DNA from: Alphaproteobacteria bacterium
GTDB lineage: Bacteria > Pseudomonadota > Alphaproteobacteria > Rhizobiales > JAKIUO01
Direction: 5' to 3'
Length of the DNA stretch: 37,259 nt
NCBI GenBank assembly: GCA_024280895.1
Contig: JAJRPI010000084.1
Span: forward strand, 1-37,259
Shown here: one piece after another, positions 5,999-37,259 of the stretch
How positions within the stretch are numbered: position 1 is the first letter of the stretch
How the letters are laid out: each line of letters opens with the position of its first letter
Program-made: the position numbers and the translations under genes
Notes under the pieces: model-generated
What the model was told of the DNA's origin: nothing
The model's database searches: none
The model's input: the letters and a program-made list of their open reading frames with translations, nothing else

Positions 5999-7468
5999 CT
6001 ATGCCCAAAAAGTACTAACAGCCCAGATAGCTGTGCCGATTAACATTATGAGAAATGAACTCAAAAAACCTAATGCTGTAAAGGGTTTTTGATCTGTGTT
6101 AATGAAATTCCCGACCTTGGACAGACCATTTCGCTTACTCCAAAGGAGGATGCGGGCCAATGGTGTAATCAACAAGACCAGCCAAAGCCAGATCGTTGTG
6201 ATGAACGACGTACCAAGCATGGCACCAAGGGCAATGGAAACAGCGATATCCTGGGGTGACGACATGACATCTTTTGGTGAAAAATTGATAAGACCTTGTG
6301 TCGCGCCCTCAAGTATCAAGGCTATCTTCCCAATCATCAACTCAATGCCGGCGCCGCCAATGACCGTCGCGCCAATAAAAAGCGGGATTGAAAGGGCGGC
6401 AGCCCATATCAGAAATGTCAAGATAGCATCAAGGGGGAGGAGGATCGGCAGCAAGGCTGGATGGTCCGCAGCAACACGCAAAAGGACACGCGTTTCCCAA
6501 AGGGAAATATAGTCACCAAGAATATTGGTTGGCAGAGAGAAGAAAATGAAAATGGTTATTTTCAATAAGGCATCACCCTCCCATAAATTGAGGAGGCTTC
6601 CATTGGGCTGAAGAGAATCGAGTGCCAGCGCGATTGTAATGACCCCAAGCAGGGAGGCGATCACCGAGCGCTTGAAACAATGCCAGGAGAAGTGATTCTG
6701 GCCAAATACAGCTTCGAATAATCGGAAAAATGCTTCGGTTATGTTAATTTCAGTTTTGCCTTTGACAGGCATGAGCCAGCGTTTCGTCAACTCGATCAAT
6801 TGGGGACTAAGGTCGCGATCTGCCTGACGCATTAAAATATAGGTCATGAATGCCAGAGCGACAGACATTCCCATTATGCCGATATTCTCTCCCTTGTTTC
6901 CCAAATACCAGGCGGCTGCAAGAAGTGGCAGTGTTGTGGTCGTAAAAGCCGCGCCGCTGCTAAAGTTTTCGCGTGGATTAGCGCCAACGGCTGTCGCTGG
7001 TATGGATGGCAGGGATTGTCTTGTGTGGACCGTGACGGCTGGCGGACTGGCAACTGGGGAGGGGGGGCGCGTTACCGACTTCTCGATTGCGTCAATGAGG
7101 TCTATCCAGCACTTGTCTTGTTTGTCGCCTTCCCAGAAAGAAAAATCTGCATAATGCAGCGAGCGAAAACCAAGGGGGGGAGAGGCACTATCGATGACAA
7201 TCGGTATCAATTTATTGTATTCAAGTGCCACATTTGCTTCATCGCGTACAAATAAAGAGGTACACGATAATTCTGACCATATGACGATAACGACGCGCGC
7301 CAGTTCCAGTTCGTTGCCGATAACAAGAGCAAAATCATCTCCCGGCTTTAGACCGGCTTTGGTTTCTTGATCCCACCAGACACCGTACCCGGCTTCTCCC
7401 AATACGGCGACGAACGGCGCGATCCGGTGGCGGTCTTCCGACTTATAACTAACAAATATATCGGCCAC
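5999..7468 (-). CDS. TIR-domain protein with multi-pass membrane C terminus
   Basis: A 489-residue protein. Residues 1-135 form a TIR domain: DIFVSYKSEDR at the first strand, a BB-loop region around WWDQETKAG, and SLFVRDE with a candidate catalytic glutamate at residue 77 matching the S-x-W-x3-E step of NAD-cleaving TIR proteins. A proline/serine-rich linker follows, then roughly residues 170-489 carry seven or eight hydrophobic segments. Bacterial TIR domains cleave NAD or make cyclic-ADP-ribose signals, often in antiphage defence; whether this one does is inferred. The GTG at 7468 is the best start because it begins just before the TIR strand, with GAGG about 11 bases upstream. Two runs of seven G (7061-7067 and 7174-7180) lie in the coding region. 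Confidence 0.8.
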   Translation of the reverse strand: MADIFVSYKSEDRHRIAPFVAVLGEAGYGVWWDQETKAGLKPGDDFALVIGNELELARVVIVIWSELSCTSLFVRDEANVALEYNKLIPIVIDSASPPLGFRSLHYADFSFWEGDKQDKCWIDLIDAIEKSVTRPPSPVASPPAVTVHTRQSLPSIPATAVGANPRENFSSGAAFTTTTLPLLAAAWYLGNKGENIGIMGMSVALAFMTYILMRQADRDLSPQLIELTKRWLMPVKGKTEINITEAFFRLFEAVFGQNHFSWHCFKRSVIASLLGVITIALALDSLQPNGSLLNLWEGDALLKITIFIFFSLPTNILGDYISLWETRVLLRVAADHPALLPILLPLDAILTFLIWAAALSIPLFIGATVIGGAGIELMIGKIALILEGATQGLINFSPKDVMSSPQDIAVSIALGAMLGTSFITTIWLWLVLLITPLARILLWSKRNGLSKVGNFINTDQKPFTALGFLSSFLIMLIGTAIWAVSTFWA

Positions 7469-9926: not shown

Positions 9927-10895
9927 ATGATTATCGACTCATCGGCACAATTGGTTTTTCCTGATTTGTTTTATCGACTAAAAGAGTTCGCCGCTGGTCG
10001 AGATGCGTTTTTGAAGCTGGAAGGCTTTAACGTCACGGGCTCAATCAAGCTCAAAACGGCAATTGGTATGATTGAAGATCTTGAGGAGCGCGGGATTGCT
10101 ACGCCAAATGAAACAACGATCATCGAATCATCGTCAGGAAATCTGGGCATCGCGCTCAGTCTGGTTTGTGCCAGCAAAGGCTACCGGTTCATCTGCGTCA
10201 CAGACCCCAACGCCAATAATGCCAATTTGATAGGGATGCAGCTCTATGGGGCCGAAGTCATCGTTGTTGACAAGCCCGATCCTAAAACTGGTTATCTGGG
10301 CAGGCGCCTGCAGGTCATCGACAAGATACTGCAAGTTGAGCCCAACTCAATCTGGCTCAACCAATATGCCAACATTGCCAACAAAATGACGCATAAAAAT
10401 ACGACCGCCGCCGAGATCGCGCGCGAATTTGACAAGGTCGACTGGGTATTTGTTGGGGCTGGAACGACCGGGACGCTTTGCGGTGTTGCGGAAGGGCTGC
10501 GCGAAAAATTTCCCAATATCCAGGTCATCGCCGTCGAGCCGGAAGGGTCCGTTACATTTGGCGGCAAGCCGGGCCGTCGTGCAATTCCTGGAATTGGTAC
10601 AAGCGTCAAACCAAAACTCGCGCAGTCTATCGATCCCGACGAAGTTATAACAATAAGCGAACTGGCTACCATTGAGGCCTGTCATGCCTTTGCCAAGGAC
10701 TATCACTTGTTGGTTGGCGGCAGCACCGGCTCTGTTCTGGCAGCGATTAAAGAAAAGGCCAGCGCGTTCGCTCAAAGCGATACCATCGTCGCTATTTCTC
10801 CAGACCTTGGCGATAAATATCTAGACACGATCTATGATCCCTCTTGGGTCGACGCCAATATCCGGTGTCCCGCTAAAACATCAATAAGCGTTTAG
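9927..10895 (+). CDS. sbnA: SbnA-like PLP-dependent synthase (stand-alone copy)
   Basis: 322 residues of the fold-type II PLP family (cysteine synthase/SbnA). The Schiff-base lysine is K41 in TGSIKLK, the substrate loop is SSSGNLGIA (68-76), and the PLP-phosphate loop is GAGTTGT. It shares the long blocks IGMQLYGAEVIVVDK, VEPEGSVTFGGK, IPGIGTSV and GDTIVAISPDLG-type ends with the fused copy at 36045-37259. SbnA condenses O-phospho-L-serine with L-glutamate to give N-(2-amino-2-carboxyethyl)-L-glutamate, which SbnB oxidises to 2,3-diaminopropionate. Start supported by AAGGA seven bases before the ATG at 9927. No sbnB lies next to it, so it may serve the distant cluster or another reaction; it lacks the cyclic-nucleotide domain. 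Confidence 0.75.
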   Translation: MIIDSSAQLVFPDLFYRLKEFAAGRDAFLKLEGFNVTGSIKLKTAIGMIEDLEERGIATPNETTIIESSSGNLGIALSLVCASKGYRFICVTDPNANNANLIGMQLYGAEVIVVDKPDPKTGYLGRRLQVIDKILQVEPNSIWLNQYANIANKMTHKNTTAAEIAREFDKVDWVFVGAGTTGTLCGVAEGLREKFPNIQVIAVEPEGSVTFGGKPGRRAIPGIGTSVKPKLAQSIDPDEVITISELATIEACHAFAKDYHLLVGGSTGSVLAAIKEKASAFAQSDTIVAISPDLGDKYLDTIYDPSWVDANIRCPAKTSISV

Positions 10896-26691: not shown

Positions 26692-27540
26692 ATGAGAGAA
26701 ATTGGACAATCTATTGATCAGCCCACGGGTGCGCAGAGCCCGTTGATGATTTCTCGGCCGGTGCTCACACACGGACTGGCGGAGGAGGCACCCTATGCGC
26801 TTGCATGGGCGCTTCAACGAAAAAAATCGACACCCAAGGTCAAAATTCTAACGTCAGTTGCAGATGCCAGAGAGGGGCAATTATCAGCGGATGAGCTGTG
26901 GCTTTGGGTGGGCGAGGTTCCTGATCTTCTCAACGGCGATATGGCTGATCTTCGCCAGATGCTTGACGAGGAAACTCAAGCGCGCCTGTCCCGGCTGGCG
27001 CGCGAACAGGACCAGGCCAGTATCGGCATTGCGCATGCCAGCTTACGGCTCCTGCTTGGTGCGATATTGGATGTTTCGCCCAGCGCCCTCGCATTCCAGC
27101 GCGGCCCTCATGGCAAACCATATCTGGTTTTAGATAATGATGGTTCGGATCGTTTGCATTTCAATTTGAGCCATACAAAGGGCGCGGTGGCCATCGCCAT
27201 GGCGCGCGAACCCGTTGGCGTCGACATCGAAATGCAGCGCGATCTGCCTGACCTCCTGGATATCGCCGAAACCGTATTTGCTCGCAAGACGATCACCGCG
27301 ATTGCTAGCGCTGTAAACGGCTCACAGCGCCGGACCCTGTTCTATCGCCATTGGACGCTTGGCGAAGCTTTGATTAAAGCAACCGGCAGTGGCATGTCTC
27401 ACGACCTCAAAAGCTTTGCTTTTTCATCGAGCGGTGCCCCAAAACTGGCCCTTTCTACGGGTGAATTTGCACAGGCCGAGCGTTGGGCATTTGGCCTTTA
27501 CGGTGTTGGCAATAGCAGCAAGCCTCAATCTTCGAGCTGA
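26692..27540 (+). CDS. Sfp-type 4'-phosphopantetheinyl transferase
   Basis: 282 residues. It attaches phosphopantetheine from CoA to the serine of carrier domains, here presumably the four-carrier protein and the NRPS nearby. Motifs: GPHGKPYL (138-145), NLSHTKG (159-164), VGVDIE (175-180), and WTLGEALIKATGSGM (221-235). The last motif normally begins W-T-x-K-E-A; here the lysine is G224. The acidic residues D178, E180 and E225 that bind magnesium are intact. The ~60-residue N-terminal extension is unlike the family and the start may be a later ATG (e.g. residue 19). Its 3' end overlaps the oppositely transcribed dioxygenase by 16 bases. Confidence 0.88.
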   Translation: MREIGQSIDQPTGAQSPLMISRPVLTHGLAEEAPYALAWALQRKKSTPKVKILTSVADAREGQLSADELWLWVGEVPDLLNGDMADLRQMLDEETQARLSRLAREQDQASIGIAHASLRLLLGAILDVSPSALAFQRGPHGKPYLVLDNDGSDRLHFNLSHTKGAVAIAMAREPVGVDIEMQRDLPDLLDIAETVFARKTITAIASAVNGSQRRTLFYRHWTLGEALIKATGSGMSHDLKSFAFSSSGAPKLALSTGEFAQAERWAFGLYGVGNSSKPQSSS

Positions 27541-28496
27541 ACAGGATCGGCCATGCCAACGAGCACTTCGCGATCGCCCTCATAGCCTTCCTTGCTGTGA
27601 GCCATGCGAATATTATCCACCAGCATTACATCGCCTGCCTGCCAAGGCTCGCGCATGGTGTTAGATTCGTAGGCGTCATTAATCGCCACCACCATGTCCT
27701 CGGTGACCGGGTCACCATTGCCAAGACTGGTGTTAAATGGCAATCCATCGCTGCCAAACACCTCGACCAGATATTCGCGAATTTCAGGATCGAGCGTCCA
27801 TTGGTTGAGAAAGGCGATCTGATTGAACCAGCAGCGCTCACCTGTAATGGGATGAGCGACCACAGCCTGGCGACGTTGCCGCGTTTTCAAGCCCCCGTCT
27901 GACTGCCATTCGCACTCAATATTGTTGGCTTTGCAATAGGCTTCTATTTCACCTTTGTCTTCAGTGCCAAAGGCTTCCGCATAAGAAGAACCGATCTCTT
28001 CATTATAGTTACGCGTCAGCATCCAGCCGTCGCGCTCGAACTGCTCGACCAGATCGGATGGCAAGGCCTTAAGGATATTTGTTGCATCGCAAACTCCGGT
28101 CTCACCGCCAGACGTGGGAGCGCTCAGGCAGGCAAACATCATGAGGCCGGCTGGTTCGCGCACATAGCTCATTTCATTGTGCATGCACATTGGTTGTCCG
28201 GGCTGCCACGGGGTCGTGGAAAATACGCCATCGGTAATCTTGCTGCGCACGGCGAAGGGTTCTCTATCGCTTATCAGGTCGGTGGCGAGGTCTGCAAAAG
28301 CCGCTGATACGCCAGATGCGTCCTGCAATCCAAGTCCACGGACAAGTACGGCGCCATGCTCCGTTACACTGGCGCGCAATGCGTCCGCATTCTCACTTGC
28401 CCAGCTTGCAGTATTGGCGCCGGGGCCAACCTGCACAATGGCCGGTTTTCCTGATTGCACGTCGATATCTAAAGGTGATTGTTCGCTTGAGGACAT
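27525..28496 (-). CDS. TauD/SyrP-like Fe(II)/2-oxoglutarate dioxygenase
   Basis: 323 residues. Iron ligands are visible as H106-x-E108 in MHNEMS and the distal H300 in RMAHSKEG, with R309 to bind 2-oxoglutarate. The HxE form, rather than HxD, is common in SyrP-like enzymes that beta-hydroxylate carrier-bound amino acids in NRPS pathways; this substrate role is inference. AAGGAGG lies seven bases before the ATG at 28496. It is the last gene of the NRPS operon, with its 3' end overlapping the convergent PPTase gene. Confidence 0.85.
   Translation of the reverse strand: MSSSEQSPLDIDVQSGKPAIVQVGPGANTASWASENADALRASVTEHGAVLVRGLGLQDASGVSAAFADLATDLISDREPFAVRSKITDGVFSTTPWQPGQPMCMHNEMSYVREPAGLMMFACLSAPTSGGETGVCDATNILKALPSDLVEQFERDGWMLTRNYNEEIGSSYAEAFGTEDKGEIEAYCKANNIECEWQSDGGLKTRQRRQAVVAHPITGERCWFNQIAFLNQWTLDPEIREYLVEVFGSDGLPFNTSLGNGDPVTEDMVVAINDAYESNTMREPWQAGDVMLVDNIRMAHSKEGYEGDREVLVGMADPVQLED

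Positions 28497-28557: not shown

Positions 28558-28558
<1 letters not shown>
28537..28558. repeat. Tetranucleotide repeat (GTTT, about 5.5 copies)
   Basis: GTTT is repeated five full times plus two bases, ending at the NRPS stop codon. It lies in the 61-base spacer between the NRPS and dioxygenase genes. Such tracts can change length by slippage and would alter spacing to the dioxygenase ribosome site. Confidence 0.85.
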
Positions 28559-31029
<2,471 letters not shown>

Positions 31030-31100: not shown

Positions 31101-34100
31101 TCATTGTGCGATTGATGGCGCGGTGCTTGAAGTGACTTTAGAAATTTCGCTTGCTGGGTTATCACCCCAAACAGTGTGCGCGAGGACTTCTTCCCCTTTC
31201 ATCAAAAACGCATTTACGGCCAGTTCTGATCCATCTCCCAATTTTGCTCCATAGTGTACCCAGGAGCCAACGCCGAGCGTGCAATTCGCGCCAATTTCAA
31301 TGTGGTCGGACTTGAAGCCGCCGTCTTCTTGCGAGTGCGACTGAATAATACTCCCGATGTTGAGCGTGCAGTCGTCGCCAATGGCAACCATTGTCCGCTC
31401 GGACACGTCGCAGCCATCATCGAAAACGCGCTTGCCGATTTTCATGCCGTGTAGACGCCAAGCAAACGCCTTGAACGGGGTGCCGTCGAGTGGCAGGAGA
31501 TGAGAGCCGGCCATTAATTTCCAATAGCGCTCGTGAAACCAGAAATAGGGGTCGTAGATCGAACATTCCCGGGGCTTTAGAGATTGGAACCTTGTGCTCA
31601 ACCGCTCAATCAGTATCCGGTAGCCAATCCTTAGAGCGATGGCGAAGAGTCCGACGATAGCCACGATCAGCGCCGCTATCGGGGCATCGAGTTTTACAAA
31701 GAACTTGGCGACCGTGAAGCCAAGGCACGTCATCAAGAACATCTCGAACCAACGGGCCGCCAGAAACAAGCCCATGGTTGCCAGATTGTGCCTGTCCTTG
31801 GCGACAAGTTTGCGTGCTTGCTCGTCTTCGTCGTTGAGCTCAAGATCGCGATCGCGTGCCACCGTGCGTGGGATATTAAAGCTGGGCGAGCCAAGCAGCC
31901 CGACCCCTTCACGTACGTCTCCTTCAAGGGGCACCAACACCTTGGTTGCGAGCAGACAATTATCGCCGGTCTTGCCCTTTGCTGGGTAGGCGATATTGTT
32001 ACCCAGAAAGTTATCGCATCCAATCGTCACTCTGGAGACACGAAATGATGTGCTTGAATAGTCGTTGTTGATTGCCGACAGCCCGTCAGCAACGACCGTC
32101 CCGCTGCCAATGGTCACGAGAAACGGATTATCATGCTTTAAGTTTAATCCAAAATTTGATCCCGTTTGAACAACGTTTGGGAAGTCATAGCCAATCCACT
32201 GCAAGTACTTGACAATGTAGGAGCTGTCTCCGAACAAAAAGGTGAAGAATTTTACGTTCGTAAGTGTACTGATCTGCCTATGTATCCAGTAATGCAGACC
32301 GTATAGCGGATAGACCTTGCCAGGTTCCAGCGCGCGGTTGAGGATGCGTGGCACTGTGCCGATGAAGACGAGCGCAGAGACCAGCGAGACTAAAAAGAGC
32401 ACCGCTGAGACAAGCAAGGCATCCACATATAATCCCCAGTGCGCAAACGGCATACTTCCTTGTTGTGCGAAGTGGGGTCTGTCGGTCAACAGGTAGACGA
32501 GTAGGATGATTGCACTAAAGGAGATGGATAGGACCAATAGCATAGGCAGCAAGGTGATAAGGGAATAGATGACCTTTCGTACTGTTCCACATTTCATTGC
32601 AGGAACATCACGGTAGTCGGTGGTCGTTTGATGCTGGGCTGGCGAACCTTGCCTGTGCTCGCCCGCAGGAATGGACTGTCCCGCGTACAAGGCCGAGGTA
32701 TGACCAATCTGCGCCCCGTCGCCAACAAAGGTATCAATGTCGAGTACCGTCATCTCGCCTATGAAGGAATTCTTGCCTAGTGTCACTGGTCCGGTCTGAA
32801 TGAGACCGGCATGGGCGCGGTAGCAGCTGAAATATGTATCTTTACGGACGATGGCATTGTCGCCTATCGACAATAGGTCGGTGCATACAGGAACATGTGG
32901 TGAGTAAATTTCGACATTTCGGCCGATTTTGGCTCCCAGTGTTCGAAGATAAGCATTATAGATCGGTGTGCCTGCGAACAGTACCAGCGGATTGGACCGG
33001 ACCAGGGTTTTGACGATCCAAAAGCGTACATAGTCAAGGCTCCAGATGCGGAACTGTCGGGCTGTCCAGCGACCGACAAGTGCCCACTTCGCCAAGATAG
33101 GAAGAACCGAAAGGAGAACGAAACTACCGCCCGAAAAGATGACCGCGCGCGCGTAGGTCTCGCCATATCCTGCGCCATCGACCACCCAGCGATAGCCAAG
33201 TGTCAGCACGAGGGCGATCAGGTAGGCATATACAAAGCTGGCAGCGAGCTGTAGCGCTCCACAAATGGCGACCTCGCGGTCTGTCGCTGGTTTTTTCGCC
33301 TCAGCTGACATGCGGGGCTGGGAGCTGTCTGGCACGAATGCGTTGGAGGCTGCACCTATTGCGGCCAAACGTGCGAGCGTTGGATTGGCATAGACTTCTT
33401 TCATTGAGATGTTTGGAGCATCGGTGCGCTTGCGCACTCGTGCACAAAAGCGTGCCATGGTCATAGAGTCGACACCAAGCTCATCGAAAAAATGCTTGTC
33501 GGTTGCAACGGTCTCGACTTTTAAAACCTCTGCGAGGACTTGCGCAAAAATGTGTTCGATGTCGGCCCCTGATCCAGAGGATTGCTCCACGGAAGGTGAG
33601 GGAACTGGCGTAACGGCCGCTGCCAACTGCGCGATTGTCGGCGCGCCATAAACCTCTTTCATCGAGACATTGGGAACATCGCCGCGCTTGCGCACTCGTG
33701 CACAAAAGCGTGCCATGGTCATAGAGTCGGCACCAAGCTCATCGAAGAAATGCTTGGCGGTTTCAACGGTCTCGACTTTTAGAATCTCTGCCAGCATTTG
33801 CGCAAAAATGCGTTCAATATCGGTCCCTGATCCAGTGGATTGCTCCGCAGAAGGTGAGGGTGCGGGCGTAACAACCGCTGCCAACTGCGCGATTGTCGGT
33901 GCACCATAAACCTCTTTCATCGAGACATTAGGAATATCATCGCGCTTGCGCAATCGCGCGCAAAAACGCGCCATGGTCATAGAGTCGGCACCAAGCTCAT
34001 CAAAGAAATGCTTGTTGGTTGCAACGGTCTCGACCTTTATAACCTCTGCGAGCACTTGCGCAAAAATGTGTTCGATGTTGGCCCCTGACCCAGTGGATTG

Positions 34101-34451
34101 CTCCATGGAAGGAGAAGGTGCTGGTGCGACGGCCGATGCCAAGCGCGCGATCGTCGGCGCGCCATAGACCTCTTTCATTGAGACATTGGGAATATCATCG
34201 CGCTTGCGCAATCGCGCGCAAAAGCGCGCCATTGTCATAGAGTCGGCACCAAGCTCATCGAAGAAATGCTTGCCGGTTTCAACGGTCTCGACCTTTAGAA
34301 CCTCTGCGAGCACTTGCGCAAAAACGTGTTCAATATTGCCCCCTGTAGCAACCGATTTGGTATCACCGTCGAGCGACGGTGTCGCCGCGCCAGTTGAACC
34401 GGATCGTCCATTGCTGTCACCGTTTGGCTTGGAACCTTTCTCGTTCATCAT
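31101..34451 (-). CDS. Four tandem carrier domains fused to a Pls-like membrane region
   Basis: 1116 residues. Four carrier domains occupy residues about 38-366 with serines S71, S157, S243 and S329 in DELG-x-DSMTM, exactly 86 residues apart. From residue 390 the protein resembles the C-terminal region of epsilon-poly-lysine synthetase (the NRPS terminal-domain family): hydrophobic helices near 394-420, 434-458, 627-655 and 676-700, then about 900-945 (two), with three soluble left-handed-beta-helix regions near 505-595, 745-860 and 1000-1090 (hexapeptide-like IGRNVEIYSP, IGDNAIVRKD, IGANCTLGVG). In Pls these soluble parts are thought to drive peptide-bond formation. No adenylation domain is present, so the neighbouring NRPS must load it. 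The start ATG at 34451 has AAGG nine bases upstream. The 89-base gap to sbnB suggests one operon. Confidence 0.85.
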   Translation of the reverse strand: MMNEKGSKPNGDSNGRSGSTGAATPSLDGDTKSVATGGNIEHVFAQVLAEVLKVETVETGKHFFDELGADSMTMARFCARLRKRDDIPNVSMKEVYGAPTIARLASAVAPAPSPSMEQSTGSGANIEHIFAQVLAEVIKVETVATNKHFFDELGADSMTMARFCARLRKRDDIPNVSMKEVYGAPTIAQLAAVVTPAPSPSAEQSTGSGTDIERIFAQMLAEILKVETVETAKHFFDELGADSMTMARFCARVRKRGDVPNVSMKEVYGAPTIAQLAAAVTPVPSPSVEQSSGSGADIEHIFAQVLAEVLKVETVATDKHFFDELGVDSMTMARFCARVRKRTDAPNISMKEVYANPTLARLAAIGAASNAFVPDSSQPRMSAEAKKPATDREVAICGALQLAASFVYAYLIALVLTLGYRWVVDGAGYGETYARAVIFSGGSFVLLSVLPILAKWALVGRWTARQFRIWSLDYVRFWIVKTLVRSNPLVLFAGTPIYNAYLRTLGAKIGRNVEIYSPHVPVCTDLLSIGDNAIVRKDTYFSCYRAHAGLIQTGPVTLGKNSFIGEMTVLDIDTFVGDGAQIGHTSALYAGQSIPAGEHRQGSPAQHQTTTDYRDVPAMKCGTVRKVIYSLITLLPMLLVLSISFSAIILLVYLLTDRPHFAQQGSMPFAHWGLYVDALLVSAVLFLVSLVSALVFIGTVPRILNRALEPGKVYPLYGLHYWIHRQISTLTNVKFFTFLFGDSSYIVKYLQWIGYDFPNVVQTGSNFGLNLKHDNPFLVTIGSGTVVADGLSAINNDYSSTSFRVSRVTIGCDNFLGNNIAYPAKGKTGDNCLLATKVLVPLEGDVREGVGLLGSPSFNIPRTVARDRDLELNDEDEQARKLVAKDRHNLATMGLFLAARWFEMFLMTCLGFTVAKFFVKLDAPIAALIVAIVGLFAIALRIGYRILIERLSTRFQSLKPRECSIYDPYFWFHERYWKLMAGSHLLPLDGTPFKAFAWRLHGMKIGKRVFDDGCDVSERTMVAIGDDCTLNIGSIIQSHSQEDGGFKSDHIEIGANCTLGVGSWVHYGAKLGDGSELAVNAFLMKGEEVLAHTVWGDNPASEISKVTSSTAPSIAQ
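33354..34340 (-). repeat. Four tandem 258-bp repeats encoding carrier domains
   Basis: The carrier-encoding stretch repeats every 258 bases with no change of spacing. Repeats 1 and 2 differ at only about 8 of 70 residues, and repeat 4 is the most diverged (GVDS instead of GADS, and TDAPN instead of DDIPN). Antisense frames repeat with the same period, which is an artefact of this. Such identical units can recombine to gain or lose copies. Confidence 0.9.
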
Positions 34452-34540: not shown

Positions 34541-35557
34541 TCACCACCGTTCAGAGTGAGAGAAAAAGTTGGGCATCAGAGTTGCCTGTCCGCTCTCGCG
34601 GGCTTTCTCGAGGACTAAATTTCCGACGGCAATATCGAGTACACCAAGGCCGAACGGCGTGAAAATGCGCGGCTTGTCAGTTGCAAGGCTGACTTTTTCT
34701 TCGAGCACATCGACCAGGATCCCGTCGATAAAATCGCGATTGCCTGTCATTATCTCGGCTAGATGCAATGATGTTTTGGCTTTAACACAGTGATCAACAT
34801 CGTCGACGAAGTTCTGCGCCGACAAGATGATCTTCTCTCCAATGTCGCGTAATGAGAGATGAAGGACTGTTGGCGAATGCGCAAATAGCTCGATGTTATG
34901 CACGTAGGGCGTGGCTGATGTGGTTGTGAACGCAATCAGGGAGGATTCACTTAAAGTGTCATCCAGATTGTCTTTGATATCGACTTCGAGACCATATTCG
35001 CTATTGAGCCATCCCGCGAAACGCTCGGCCTCATTTTTGTCGAGATCGAATAGATTGACCTTGTCGAACTTCCAGTTGCGGAACATCAGCCATTGGACCG
35101 TCGTGCGGGCAATAATGCCTGTACCGATAATGCCCATTGTTCCCGTGAACGGTTCGGGCGCCAGATGCTCTGCCGCCAGCGCAGCTGAAGCGGCGGTTCG
35201 CGTCGCGCTGATTACCGAAGCTTCCAGGCATGCGACCGGATAGCCGTTGGAGGCATCGTTTAGAATCAAGACAGCGGAGGCGCGGGCCAGGTTGGCCTTA
35301 CGGTTTTCGGGAAAGCTTGAAATCCACTTGATGCCACTCTTTTGGACAGAACCGCCCAGATGTGCAGGCAAGGCGATGATACGAGCGCTCGGATTGTCTG
35401 GATAGAGCAGAAAATAGCTGTCTGGATTGACCGAGTCGCCTTTGGCGTGAAGCCGATAGGCCATCTCGACTGCGTCAAAAACCGCGGCTCTGTTTTTCTC
35501 GATTACGTCTCCGACTGCTGAGCCAGGAACGCCATAAAATTCAGGTGGTTGCGACAA
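34541..35557 (-). CDS. sbnB: SbnB, N-(2-amino-2-carboxyethyl)-L-glutamate oxidase/dehydrogenase
   Basis: About 338 residues of the ornithine-cyclodeaminase fold, in the SbnB group that turns the SbnA product into L-2,3-diaminopropionate and 2-oxoglutarate with NAD. GIIGTGIIART is the NAD-binding loop. YPDNPSARIIALPAHLGG and SGIKWISSFPEN are SbnB-like. I take the TTG at 35557 with GGAG eight bases upstream, giving the usual family length; a longer open frame to a TTG at 35641 lacks a ribosome site and merges with the decayed sbnA copy. It is followed by the four-carrier gene. Confidence 0.85.
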   Translation of the reverse strand: MSQPPEFYGVPGSAVGDVIEKNRAAVFDAVEMAYRLHAKGDSVNPDSYFLLYPDNPSARIIALPAHLGGSVQKSGIKWISSFPENRKANLARASAVLILNDASNGYPVACLEASVISATRTAASAALAAEHLAPEPFTGTMGIIGTGIIARTTVQWLMFRNWKFDKVNLFDLDKNEAERFAGWLNSEYGLEVDIKDNLDDTLSESSLIAFTTTSATPYVHNIELFAHSPTVLHLSLRDIGEKIILSAQNFVDDVDHCVKAKTSLHLAEIMTGNRDFIDGILVDVLEEKVSLATDKPRIFTPFGLGVLDIAVGNLVLEKARESGQATLMPNFFSHSERW

Positions 35558-35644
35558 TTTTGTATCTCCGGTATTTTGATTATATTGAAAATATTCTTCT
35601 TTAGTTATGTCGTTGTTCGCTTGATCTGGCTCGCGTTTCAAGGC

Positions 35645-36000
35645 AGCTTATTGATCGTGCCGAGAATGGTTTCGCCAATGGTAAATTCTGTTTCCTTTGT
35701 CTCGATAGCTTCGAATGCTGCACCAGCGCTTCGTTCGACCGATAGGTGATCATCGCGGACTAGCTGACGCCAAGATTCCATACTACACGTCCAAAGATTG
35801 TGATGCCTGTCACACATTCATGCTTTTCCGACTTGCCATCGGAAATAACGTCGCCTTCGGGTTCGACCAACAAGAGCTTTATGGTGCGCAATTTTTCGCA
35901 CAGCGGCTTGATGGCTCCATTGACCGGCCCACAACCGTGCAACGCCTTGAAAAAAAACAACGAGCCATCCACTCAATGATATTTGTCGATGATCCCGAGA
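35645..36000 (-). pseudogene. Decayed sbnA copy between sbnB and the sbnA-cNMP gene
   Basis: In the minus strand, one frame (to about 35760) reads CEKLRTIKLLLVEPEGDVISDGKSEKHE, and another, from about 35778, reads ESWRQLVRDDHLSVERSAGAA followed by TKETEFTIGETIL. These match in order the blocks VEPEGSVTFGGKSEPRH, ESCRQFVRDYHLLVGGSTGAV and KEKQAEFSPGDTIV of the intact fused SbnA upstream. The distance between the blocks is 89 bases here against 141 in the intact gene, so an internal deletion of about 52 bases with a frameshift has occurred. It is closer to the fused copy (GKSE, RQ-VRD) than to the stand-alone copy at 9927. Confidence 0.75.
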
Positions 36001-36044
36001 TGCCGTCTCCCGCATAAAATCAATTTGCACTGGGCCGCCCATCT

Positions 36045-37259
36045 TTACGCCTCGCTATCAAGGCGAGCAAGCAACCGCTGCATGCGGTCGCCGACAACAT
36101 GTAGGGGAGCAAGCGAGTCGTCATCAAGTTCGCTCGGGGCCTCGATACGGGCCTGTTCATTGTATTCGACATCCCCGTTGCCGAACTGAACGGTCGTCGT
36201 GCGCACCCGGTAAGAAAGAAAGACAGCGAACGCCTTGTATAATCTTGCAGCGAAATCGGTATCAGACTCAAGGCGGCTGTTTATCTCTGAATGGGGTATG
36301 GCCAGGACGCGCGCATCTGCTTCACATACAACGGAGACCGTTGGCAGGCGCTTCTCGATCAGCGACATCTCGCCAACGATATCGCCTGGCGCGAGCCGGG
36401 CAACAACCTTTTCTCCGTTTACATCGCCCAGTTTCACCGATAATTCGCCTTCGAGGAGGATATAGAGCGCCTCTACAGGTTCACCTGCTGTCACCAGAAT
36501 ATCGCCTTTGGAAAGATGTTGCTGGCCCGCAGTGGTGGCCATCCAGGATATGTCGGCCTCATCGAGATTGGGGAGAATATGGTCTATATTGGCGGCGACC
36601 CAGGACGGTTCATAGACGGTATCGAGATATTTCTCGCCAAGGTCGGGAGAGATCGCAACGATGGTGTCGCCTGGAGAGAATTCGGCTTGCTTCTCCTTGA
36701 CGGCTGCCAGTACGGCGCCAGTGCTGCCACCCACCAGTAAATGATAGTCACGCACGAACTGACGGCAGGACTCAACCGTATCCACCTCGCTGATCGTGAC
36801 AATATGATCGGGATCTACATGGTCAGCCAGTGGTGGGCGCACACTCGTGCCGATCCCGGGGATGTGGCGCGGCTCTGATTTGCCGCCAAAGGTGACGGAC
36901 CCTTCGGGCTCGACCGCAACGACCTTGACCCCAGGGTGCTTTTCGCGAAGCCGCTCAGCGACACCGGTGATCGTTCCCATCGTGCCGGCGCCAACGAAGA
37001 TCCAGTCAACTTTCTCGAATTCCTCGGCGATCTCATTGCCCGTTTGCTCGGCATGGACGTTTTTGGCCGCCACATTGGCATACTGATTGAGCCAGATCGC
37101 ATTTGGCTCTGTCTCTAACAGATGCTGGATGGTCTCGAGACGCGTGCCCAGATAACCAGTCTCTGGATGGAGCTTGTCGACGACGATGACCTCGGCGCCG
37201 TAAAGTTGCATACCCTTGATGTTTGAGGTGTTCGCCTTGGGGTCGGTGACGCAGATGAA
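36045..37259 (-). CDS. sbnA: SbnA-like synthase fused to a cyclic-nucleotide-binding domain (5' end beyond window)
   Basis: The frame is open through the right edge; the residues after the window edge continue as FICVTDP, so the start and the PLP lysine lie outside. The visible N-terminal part is SbnA-like: IGMQLYGAE-type block, QYANVAAKN, GAGTMGT PLP loop, VEPEGSVTFGGK, IPGIGTSVRP and GGSTGAVLAA. After EKYLDTVYEPSW, about 60 residues link to a CRP-like cyclic-nucleotide-binding domain: LSKGDILVTAGEPVEALYILLEGE, then a phosphate-binding-cassette-like GEMSLIEKRLPTVSV. A nucleotide-binding domain on a biosynthetic enzyme suggests allosteric control. The gene reads into the relic, then sbnB. Confidence 0.85.
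   Translation of the reverse strand, partial: FICVTDPKANTSNIKGMQLYGAEVIVVDKLHPETGYLGTRLETIQHLLETEPNAIWLNQYANVAAKNVHAEQTGNEIAEEFEKVDWIFVGAGTMGTITGVAERLREKHPGVKVVAVEPEGSVTFGGKSEPRHIPGIGTSVRPPLADHVDPDHIVTISEVDTVESCRQFVRDYHLLVGGSTGAVLAAVKEKQAEFSPGDTIVAISPDLGEKYLDTVYEPSWVAANIDHILPNLDEADISWMATTAGQQHLSKGDILVTAGEPVEALYILLEGELSVKLGDVNGEKVVARLAPGDIVGEMSLIEKRLPTVSVVCEADARVLAIPHSEINSRLESDTDFAARLYKAFAVFLSYRVRTTTVQFGNGDVEYNEQARIEAPSELDDDSLAPLHVVGDRMQRLLARLDSEA

Follow-up and report, generated by a model that had tools for sequence, protein, structure and literature searches.

An SbnA-type enzyme fused at its C terminus to a domain of the cyclic-nucleotide-binding (CNB) fold is encoded at one end of the stretch of DNA analysed here. 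This stretch, hereafter the window, is an entire contig of 37,259 bases (G000:C96) from an assembly of 3.36 Mb in 96 contigs. The fusion ORF (36045-37259, minus strand) is a 404-codon frame which enters from the contig end at 37259 and terminates with a stop codon at 36045-36047. It contains about the last 70% of the enzyme (36597..37259, minus strand, residues 1-221 of the open fragment), followed by a CNB-fold tail of 183 residues (36048..36596, minus strand). About 87 N-terminal residues lie past the contig end; recovery of the full 5′ end, as proposed in an earlier note on this DNA, failed, no match for the missing end being found in the window's own assembly. Pfam detects PALP at residues 2-206 (E 2.1e-38) and cNMP_binding at residues 247-332 (E 5.4e-18, 65.2 bits for a cut-off of 27.5), so that the search of the tail against the cNMP-binding family suggested in that note was positive. 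These are the only Pfam domains of the ORF, with no HK97 shell domain, CBS domain or DNA-binding domain. The same fusion is present in a genome of the same genus (G002) and in a Filomicrobium sp. MAG (genome G397), where its N terminus is complete (L053). In G002 the gene is divided across two contigs sharing an exact 118-base overlap, and the split is located upstream of the enzyme-tail junction. Because this junction is internal to contigs of three assemblies (the window, G002:C93 or L039, and the MAG contig carrying L053), the fusion is not an assembly join, and an artefact of this kind was ruled out as its source. The fusion of SbnA to a CNB domain read by the earlier note is therefore genuine. 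That note was also right about the stand-alone SbnA paralogue of the window (9927..10895, plus strand, 370.1 bits with the NCBIfam SbnA model TIGR03945), in which Pfam shows PALP only and no tail.

The enzyme part of the window copy matches TIGR03945 over model positions 84-304 of 304, with a score of 280.5 bits that remains under the SbnA equivalog cut-off of 349.95 because the N-terminal part is missing. The MAG fusion, with its full N terminus, scores 369.3 bits, above this cut-off. The best PDB match of the window enzyme part is SbnA 5d87 (E 1.6e-45), and the solved structure closest to the predicted model of L053 is SbnA 5d84 (Foldseek, 34% identity). When L053 is aligned with 5d87, GSIK falls on GSMK and SSSGN on STSGN; the same part of the window copy lies past the contig end. 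The former is the PLP-lysine segment and the latter the SxSGN loop, both SbnA-type motifs. On these sequence matches, the enzyme part is assigned as a genuine SbnA. Like S. aureus SbnA (TIGR03945; PDB 5d84-5d87), it is a PALP enzyme that belongs to the diaminopropionate pathway and has SbnB as its partner. The alignment with the S. aureus protein, whose solved chain has 326 residues, is confined to the PALP part, and the Ser altered in the Y152F/S185G entry is a Gly in the fusion. SbnA and SbnB together constitute the diaminopropionate synthase of S. aureus (PMC3179956). As an SbnA, the fused enzyme would be the first of L-2,3-diaminopropionate synthesis and would make the substrate of SbnB.

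Downstream of the fusion and on the same strand are found, in this order, SbnB (34541..35641, minus strand; TIGR03944 383.8 bits, cut-off 326.9), a Pls/PosA-type NRPS terminal protein with four tandem carrier domains (31101..34451, minus strand; TIGR02353 664.1 bits, cut-off 423.1; PP-binding in four stretches), and, as identified by domain search, an NRPS made of a partial condensation domain, an adenylation domain and a carrier (28558..31029, minus strand) and a TauD/TfdA-family dioxygenase (27525..28496, minus strand). A 4′-phosphopantetheinyl transferase (26692..27540, plus strand, Pfam ACPS) faces these genes, and shares 59% identity over 245 aa with its counterpart beside the cluster of the Filomicrobium MAG (L181). 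About 400 bases separate the fusion from SbnB, whose listed TTG start is probably too early, homology beginning at about residue 24-30. No sigma-70-like site was found in 35500-36300, and a search of the whole window with Rfam gathering scores gave no family. Counted by motif in the three genomes, the tandem carriers of the Pls-type protein number 4 in the window (31101-34451), 2 in L181 (1337-4237) and 3 in L045 (4320-7457). Elsewhere in the window, a 489-residue protein with an N-terminal TIR domain is encoded at 5999-7468 (minus strand).

The poly-diaminopropionate pathway of Streptomyces albulus combines cysteine-synthase-like and ornithine-cyclodeaminase-like enzymes with a Pls-type synthetase (PMC4668381). 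Both enzyme types accompany a Pls-type synthetase in the window as well. In S. albulus, according to the same paper, a single protein carries the adenylation, carrier and membrane parts, whereas these are split here; the membrane protein of the window bears four carriers, and a dioxygenase and a partial condensation domain are encoded beside it. By analogy, SbnB and the Pls-type synthetase point to a predicted product that contains diaminopropionate or consists of poly-diaminopropionate.

The three genomes differ in how the fusion is arranged. In the Filomicrobium MAG, contig C481 opens with the last 59 residues of the tail, whose stop codon is 55 bases before the SbnB ATG; SbnB, Pls, NRPS and TauD follow, with a phosphopantetheinyl transferase facing them. 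The adjacency of C249 and C481 was inferred from this tail piece, since the two contigs do not overlap. One other PALP match, only 29% identical, exists in the MAG assembly, and the fusion is thus the only close SbnA found there. G002, in contrast, has an SbnA-SbnB-PPTase-Pls-NRPS-TauD operon with a stand-alone, tail-less SbnA, and no cluster genes were detected on its fusion contigs (11.8 and 10.7 kb; tblastn, E 0.01). The earlier note had described the fusion as cluster-specific, which fits the window and the MAG but fails in G002, where operon and fusion are apart. Its suggestion to look for the same fusion in other NRPS clusters was likewise rewarded in the MAG, where the fusion precedes SbnB-Pls-NRPS-TauD, and not in G002. 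The cluster proteins of the window are 78 (SbnB), 66 (Pls), 69 (NRPS) and 69% (TauD) identical to those of the MAG, and 72, 56, 61 and 59% identical to those of G002 despite the common genus. The stand-alone SbnA at 9927 adjoins GalE-IMPase-SoxG-SoxA, whose products are 79-93% identical to those encoded beside the complete G002 cluster; given these shared neighbours, it looks like the leftover of a cluster of the stand-alone type. The segment 9927-16660 of the window is syntenic with G002 C188 (L183), which holds that complete stand-alone-type NRPS cluster. Of two cluster types, the window genome and G002 thus seem to have each retained a different, opposite part.

Several other arrangements were encountered. 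In the Filomicrobium MAG, the gene immediately upstream of the fusion (L053 1041-1844) also encodes a CNB-fold protein, of broadly the same type. It was dropped as a candidate partner of the fusion protein, its matches in G000 and G002 being distant (best E 2e-10, 30% identity) in a comparison covering 25 of the 26 non-fusion PF00027 places of these two genomes. In the relatives L134, L198, L199 and L202, a stand-alone SbnA-SbnB pair is followed by what by eye is an amidinotransferase-like gene, which makes another cluster type. A different SbnA-like fusion is present in genome G630 (L187 1465-2838, minus strand): its PALP enzyme scores 328.8 bits with TIGR03945, just under the cut-off, and its N-terminal domain weakly resembles ParB_N (20.8 bits) and the serine kinase SerK (28.1 bits), both under cut-off. 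This domain is perhaps an SbnI-like kinase, which in such a fusion would presumably supply O-phosphoserine.

The gap between the window fusion and SbnB contains a decayed relic of SbnA (35662..35930, minus strand; tblastn and blastn). Two pieces, 35826-35930 and 35662-35784, are in different frames, the relic having an internal deletion; they match residues 181-215 and 247-287 of the G002 fusion enzyme, with 46% identity over 35 aa and 54% over 41 aa (tblastn, E 2.4e-12, with the 487-base gap as database). At the DNA level, 74% identity was found over 114 nt (blastn, E 7.6e-16). Among 100 base-shuffled controls, searched with the default word size, the highest score was 24.3 bits, compared to 43.9 for the relic. 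Similarity of these pieces to the stand-alone SbnA at 9927 is weaker (E 1.2e-6). It is plausible that the SbnA beside SbnB decayed, and that an intact fusion copy replaced it from upstream.

The two halves of the fusion gene have diverged unequally. Window positions 36870-37199, in the enzyme part, are 96-98% identical in DNA to G002 C209/C93 over about 100 codons, whereas DNA identity between G000 and G002 is 0.59-0.81 along the tail, and about 0.6 for its last ~60 residues. In terms of residues, 212 of 221 are identical in the enzyme part and 114 of 180 in the tail. Moreover, the tail tree pairs G002 with the MAG, and the enzyme tree (nine rows, L184-L186 left aside, three distant rows being long-branched) pairs G002 with the window. 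Given this contrast in identity and the discordant trees, the fusion gene looks like a recombination mosaic. By a simple counting method, dN/dS in the tail is 0.27 (G000/G002), 0.10 (G000/MAG) and 0.07 (G002/MAG), the MAG tail being cut at 118 residues and the ratios of the MAG pairs being rough because dS exceeds 1; values for the enzyme part are 0.06-0.10. The tail is free of stop codons in the three genomes. Judged from these sequences, the core of the tail is constrained and its last 60 residues are not well kept.

The fusion was sought more widely with the L053 protein as query, at a threshold of E 1e-45 and in genome sets that overlap. Matches were found in 7 of 397 genomes of the order, and only those of G000 and G002 reach into the tail. 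In the class (12 matched out of 385) and the phylum (5 out of 398), matches end at query position 323 at most, except G000's own. Among 98 relatives of the Filomicrobium MAG, 5 matched, the MAG's own copy included, and that copy alone is fused. One candidate, G1119, was rejected as a fusion: it aligned to position 343 through a stop, and its ORF is a 351-residue SbnA without tail. A literature search of partial coverage returned no paper whose title deals with a fusion of SbnA, or of a cysteine synthase, to a CNB domain. What is new here is an SbnA with an added domain; the family of the added domain is known but uncharacterised.

To identify this family, we compared the tail with NCBIfam models. 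It matches TIGR03896 (cyc_nuc_ocin, bacteriocin-type transport-associated protein) with an E value of 9.6e-33, over the C-terminal half of the model only (145-317 of 317) and under its cut-off (113.9 bits for 161.05). The four stand-alone relatives scanned (L040-L043) are under this cut-off as well, with 103.8-131.6 bits. In alignment A1, the closest relatives of the tail are stand-alone proteins of 173-185 residues which match it end to end. Most of them start with MRK.LYILG.L, and since the start Met of most is opposite tail residue 1, a whole protein appears to have been appended to SbnA. At each of the four loci L040-L043, the relative has a neighbouring ABC exporter gene for which NHLM_micro_ABC2 is the top NCBIfam name, with 738.5, 710.9, 690.4 and 795.9 bits, the cut-off of 709.4 being exceeded at three of the four. 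Where loci were scanned for further exporter components, NHLM ABC1 was over cut-off (L040 and L042) and HlyD was seen (L040). From these similarities, the tail is classified as a CNB-fold protein of the NHLM/NHLP peptide-export type, and not as a generic CRP domain.

A search of the genome collection confirmed 469 loci with tail relatives, of which the best 80 were taken. These include at least two SbnA fusions (L052, the G002 copy, and L053, that of the MAG), a lower bound because only the best 80 of 469 were considered, and 78 non-fusions. NHLM ABC1 or ABC2 of L040 found a tblastn match of at least 150 bits, a threshold that other ABC exporters could reach, in the available DNA around 51 of these 78 stand-alone loci; of the 27 without such a gene, 21 are cyanobacterial according to record titles. 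Rows with long N-terminal extensions were assessed by eye only: L089 and L090 resemble double CNB proteins, and L113, L127 and L131 over-extended frames. None of 8 viral pattern matches was confirmed as a tail relative. The usual partner of the tail is missing from the genus, as no NHLM ABC1 (TIGR03796) exceeds the cut-off in its five genomes (the best, 470 bits in G002, is an HlyB-type exporter), and no NHLM exporter was seen among the scanned proteins of the window. The window tail thus differs from the stand-alone proteins by its attachment to an enzyme and by its occurrence in a genus where no NHLM ABC1 passes the cut-off. In a tree of 83 rows with midpoint root, the three fusion tails form one group with support 100/99, which is consistent with a single origin. 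SbnA has acquired, probably once, a whole stand-alone accessory protein of the CNB fold at its C-terminal end. The AlphaFold2 model of the tail is a CNB fold (mean pLDDT 83.6), its best VIA-align match being 9ydf (Z 15.7, rmsd 1.7 over 123 residues), and the L053 model shows two folded domains joined by a linker of low confidence (313-316). Arg130 and Arg132 of the C-helix are present in all 78 stand-alone rows from the best 80 of 469 loci, and Arg171 in 77 of them, this residue being Ser in the G002 fusion. To our knowledge, no function is known for the CNB-fold proteins of NHLM peptide-export operons.

CNB domains have an invariant arginine in the phosphate-binding cassette and a beta2,3 loop that holds it, and position 7 of this loop is predominantly Gly in CNB structures, as stated in PMC2275311. 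In the tail, the cassette segment GEMSLIEKRLPTVSV (36330..36374, minus strand) has Pro85 in the canonical Arg column and Arg83 two residues earlier, and the beta2,3 loop VTAGEPVEALY (36462..36494, minus strand) has Val at position 7. We aligned 80 rows of the family, namely the window tail and 79 loci from the best 80 of 469, the near-duplicate L052 being omitted. Among these rows, the Arg column holds Pro in 72, Thr in 6, Ala in 2 and Arg in none, and loop position 7 is Val in 42, Ile in 26 and Gly in a single one. The cassette Gly-Glu is present in 80 of 80, an invariance of GEMS that is partly built into the search pattern, and Arg83 in 48 of 80 and in all three fusions. Six CNB domains from the same genus were selected for carrying the motif with Arg; in each of four MAFFT modes their cassette Arg falls on Pro85, and at the loop position four of them have Pro rather than Gly. 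Pairwise comparison of the tail with other CNB domains of the window genome and G002 gave H, F, R, I or no aligned residue in the Arg column; many of the genus's CNB domains are hence without it too. Phmmer paired the Arg of 5j3u domain 1 and 6h4g domain 1 with Arg83 through gaps, and placed that of 2pqq, 5j3u domain 2 and three 9ya0 domains on Pro85 without gaps. Compared to the CNB domains of CRP and PKA-R, the tail thus shares the fold and the cassette Gly-Glu, and differs by the Pro of the Arg column, the Val of the loop and the absence of a detected DNA-binding domain. The earlier note had considered that the domain may be structural only if cassette residues were lacking on alignment: the canonical Arg is indeed absent, while Gly-Glu is kept and Arg83 is nearby. 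Arg83 could serve as an alternative phosphate ligand, leaving a non-canonical site possible. On the aligned residues, classical binding of cAMP or cGMP by the tail is unlikely.

The proposal of the earlier note that a cyclic nucleotide switches diaminopropionate supply is weakened by these results, and we now regard it as improbable. It would account for the CNB fold, class III cyclases are encoded in all three fusion-bearing genomes, and the Arg83 of the three fusions is the residue paired with a cassette Arg in the gapped alignments; yet Pro85 occupies the Arg column, where none of the 80 rows from the best of 469 loci has Arg, and the loop has Val. A further argument against it comes from family 2B encapsulins, distantly related to the tail (31.6 bits for a cut-off of 400), whose CNB domain is reported not to bind cyclic nucleotides in PMC12407261, which cites its ref. 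35. That domain is also of the CNB type with divergent ligand-site residues, according to the same paper; there it is inserted in an HK97 shell protein, in contrast to the fusion. The encapsulin domain was absent from the top 50 rows of the tail's Foldseek and VIA lists, an absence which proves nothing. An automatic "cyclic nucleotide-binding" label need not imply a cAMP switch.

We tentatively favour, among the readings considered, an SbnA fused to an NHLM/NHLP-type CNB protein whose tail would be a docking or regulatory adaptor rather than a cAMP/cGMP sensor. The tail would most likely hold SbnA at the membrane-bound Pls/NRPS machinery, its helices mediating pairing or docking, and the ligand of its altered pocket, if any, would be something other than a classical cyclic nucleotide. 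The reasoning is that many stand-alone relatives accompany membrane peptide exporters, and that here a membrane peptide synthetase is at hand: in two of the three genomes, the fusion adjoins a cluster that comprises SbnB, an NRPS and a Pls-type membrane synthetase. Against it, the usual NHLM ABC1 partner is missing from the five genomes of the genus, Arg83 might contact a phosphate in place of the canonical arginine, the G002 fusion is not beside Pls/NRPS and a similar cluster there works with a tail-less SbnA, 27 of the 78 stand-alone loci (best 80 of 469) have no NHLM-type ABC match, and the last ~60 residues of the tail are poorly kept between G000 and G002, with Arg171 replaced by Ser in the latter. 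Nearly as likely as the adaptor, though itself no better than a possibility, is a tail that gates SbnA allosterically through a small ligand other than a classical cyclic nucleotide. Cystathionine beta-synthase, of the PALP fold, is regulated by C-terminal domains, and shares with the fusion a PALP enzyme followed by an extra domain, which is CNB-fold here and not CBS. The retention of Gly-Glu in 80 of 80 rows (best of 469; partly built into the search pattern) and of the C-helix arginines in 78 of 78 stand-alone rows (best 80 of 469 loci), as well as the two folded domains and the linker of the L053 model (low confidence at 313-316), agree with allostery; between G000 and G002, nevertheless, divergence is greater in the tail than in the enzyme part, and we know of no ligand for the NHLM-type CNB family, which counts against it. 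Lastly, the tail is unlikely to be a neutral passenger that arose through an accidental gene fusion and plays no part in the pathway. Tail-less SbnA in the G002 operon and in the SbnA-SbnB pairs of relatives with another cluster type, the fast-changing C-terminal end, and the restriction of the fusion to three genomes among those searched all speak for a passenger, but dN/dS values of 0.07-0.27, a tail without stop codons in three genomes and a MAG devoid of any other close SbnA speak against it.

Whichever role the tail has, its fusion to an enzyme of known reaction offers a handle on this CNB family, as the activity can report ligand sensing or partner docking. A more specific version of the adaptor reading, in which the NHLM-operon CNB protein is a docking adaptor for membrane peptide machinery that was captured to hold diaminopropionate synthesis at the membrane-bound synthetase, is a doubtful proposal at this stage. 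If true, it would assign a role to a family of uncharacterised proteins that ranges from Cyanobacteria to Bacteroidota.
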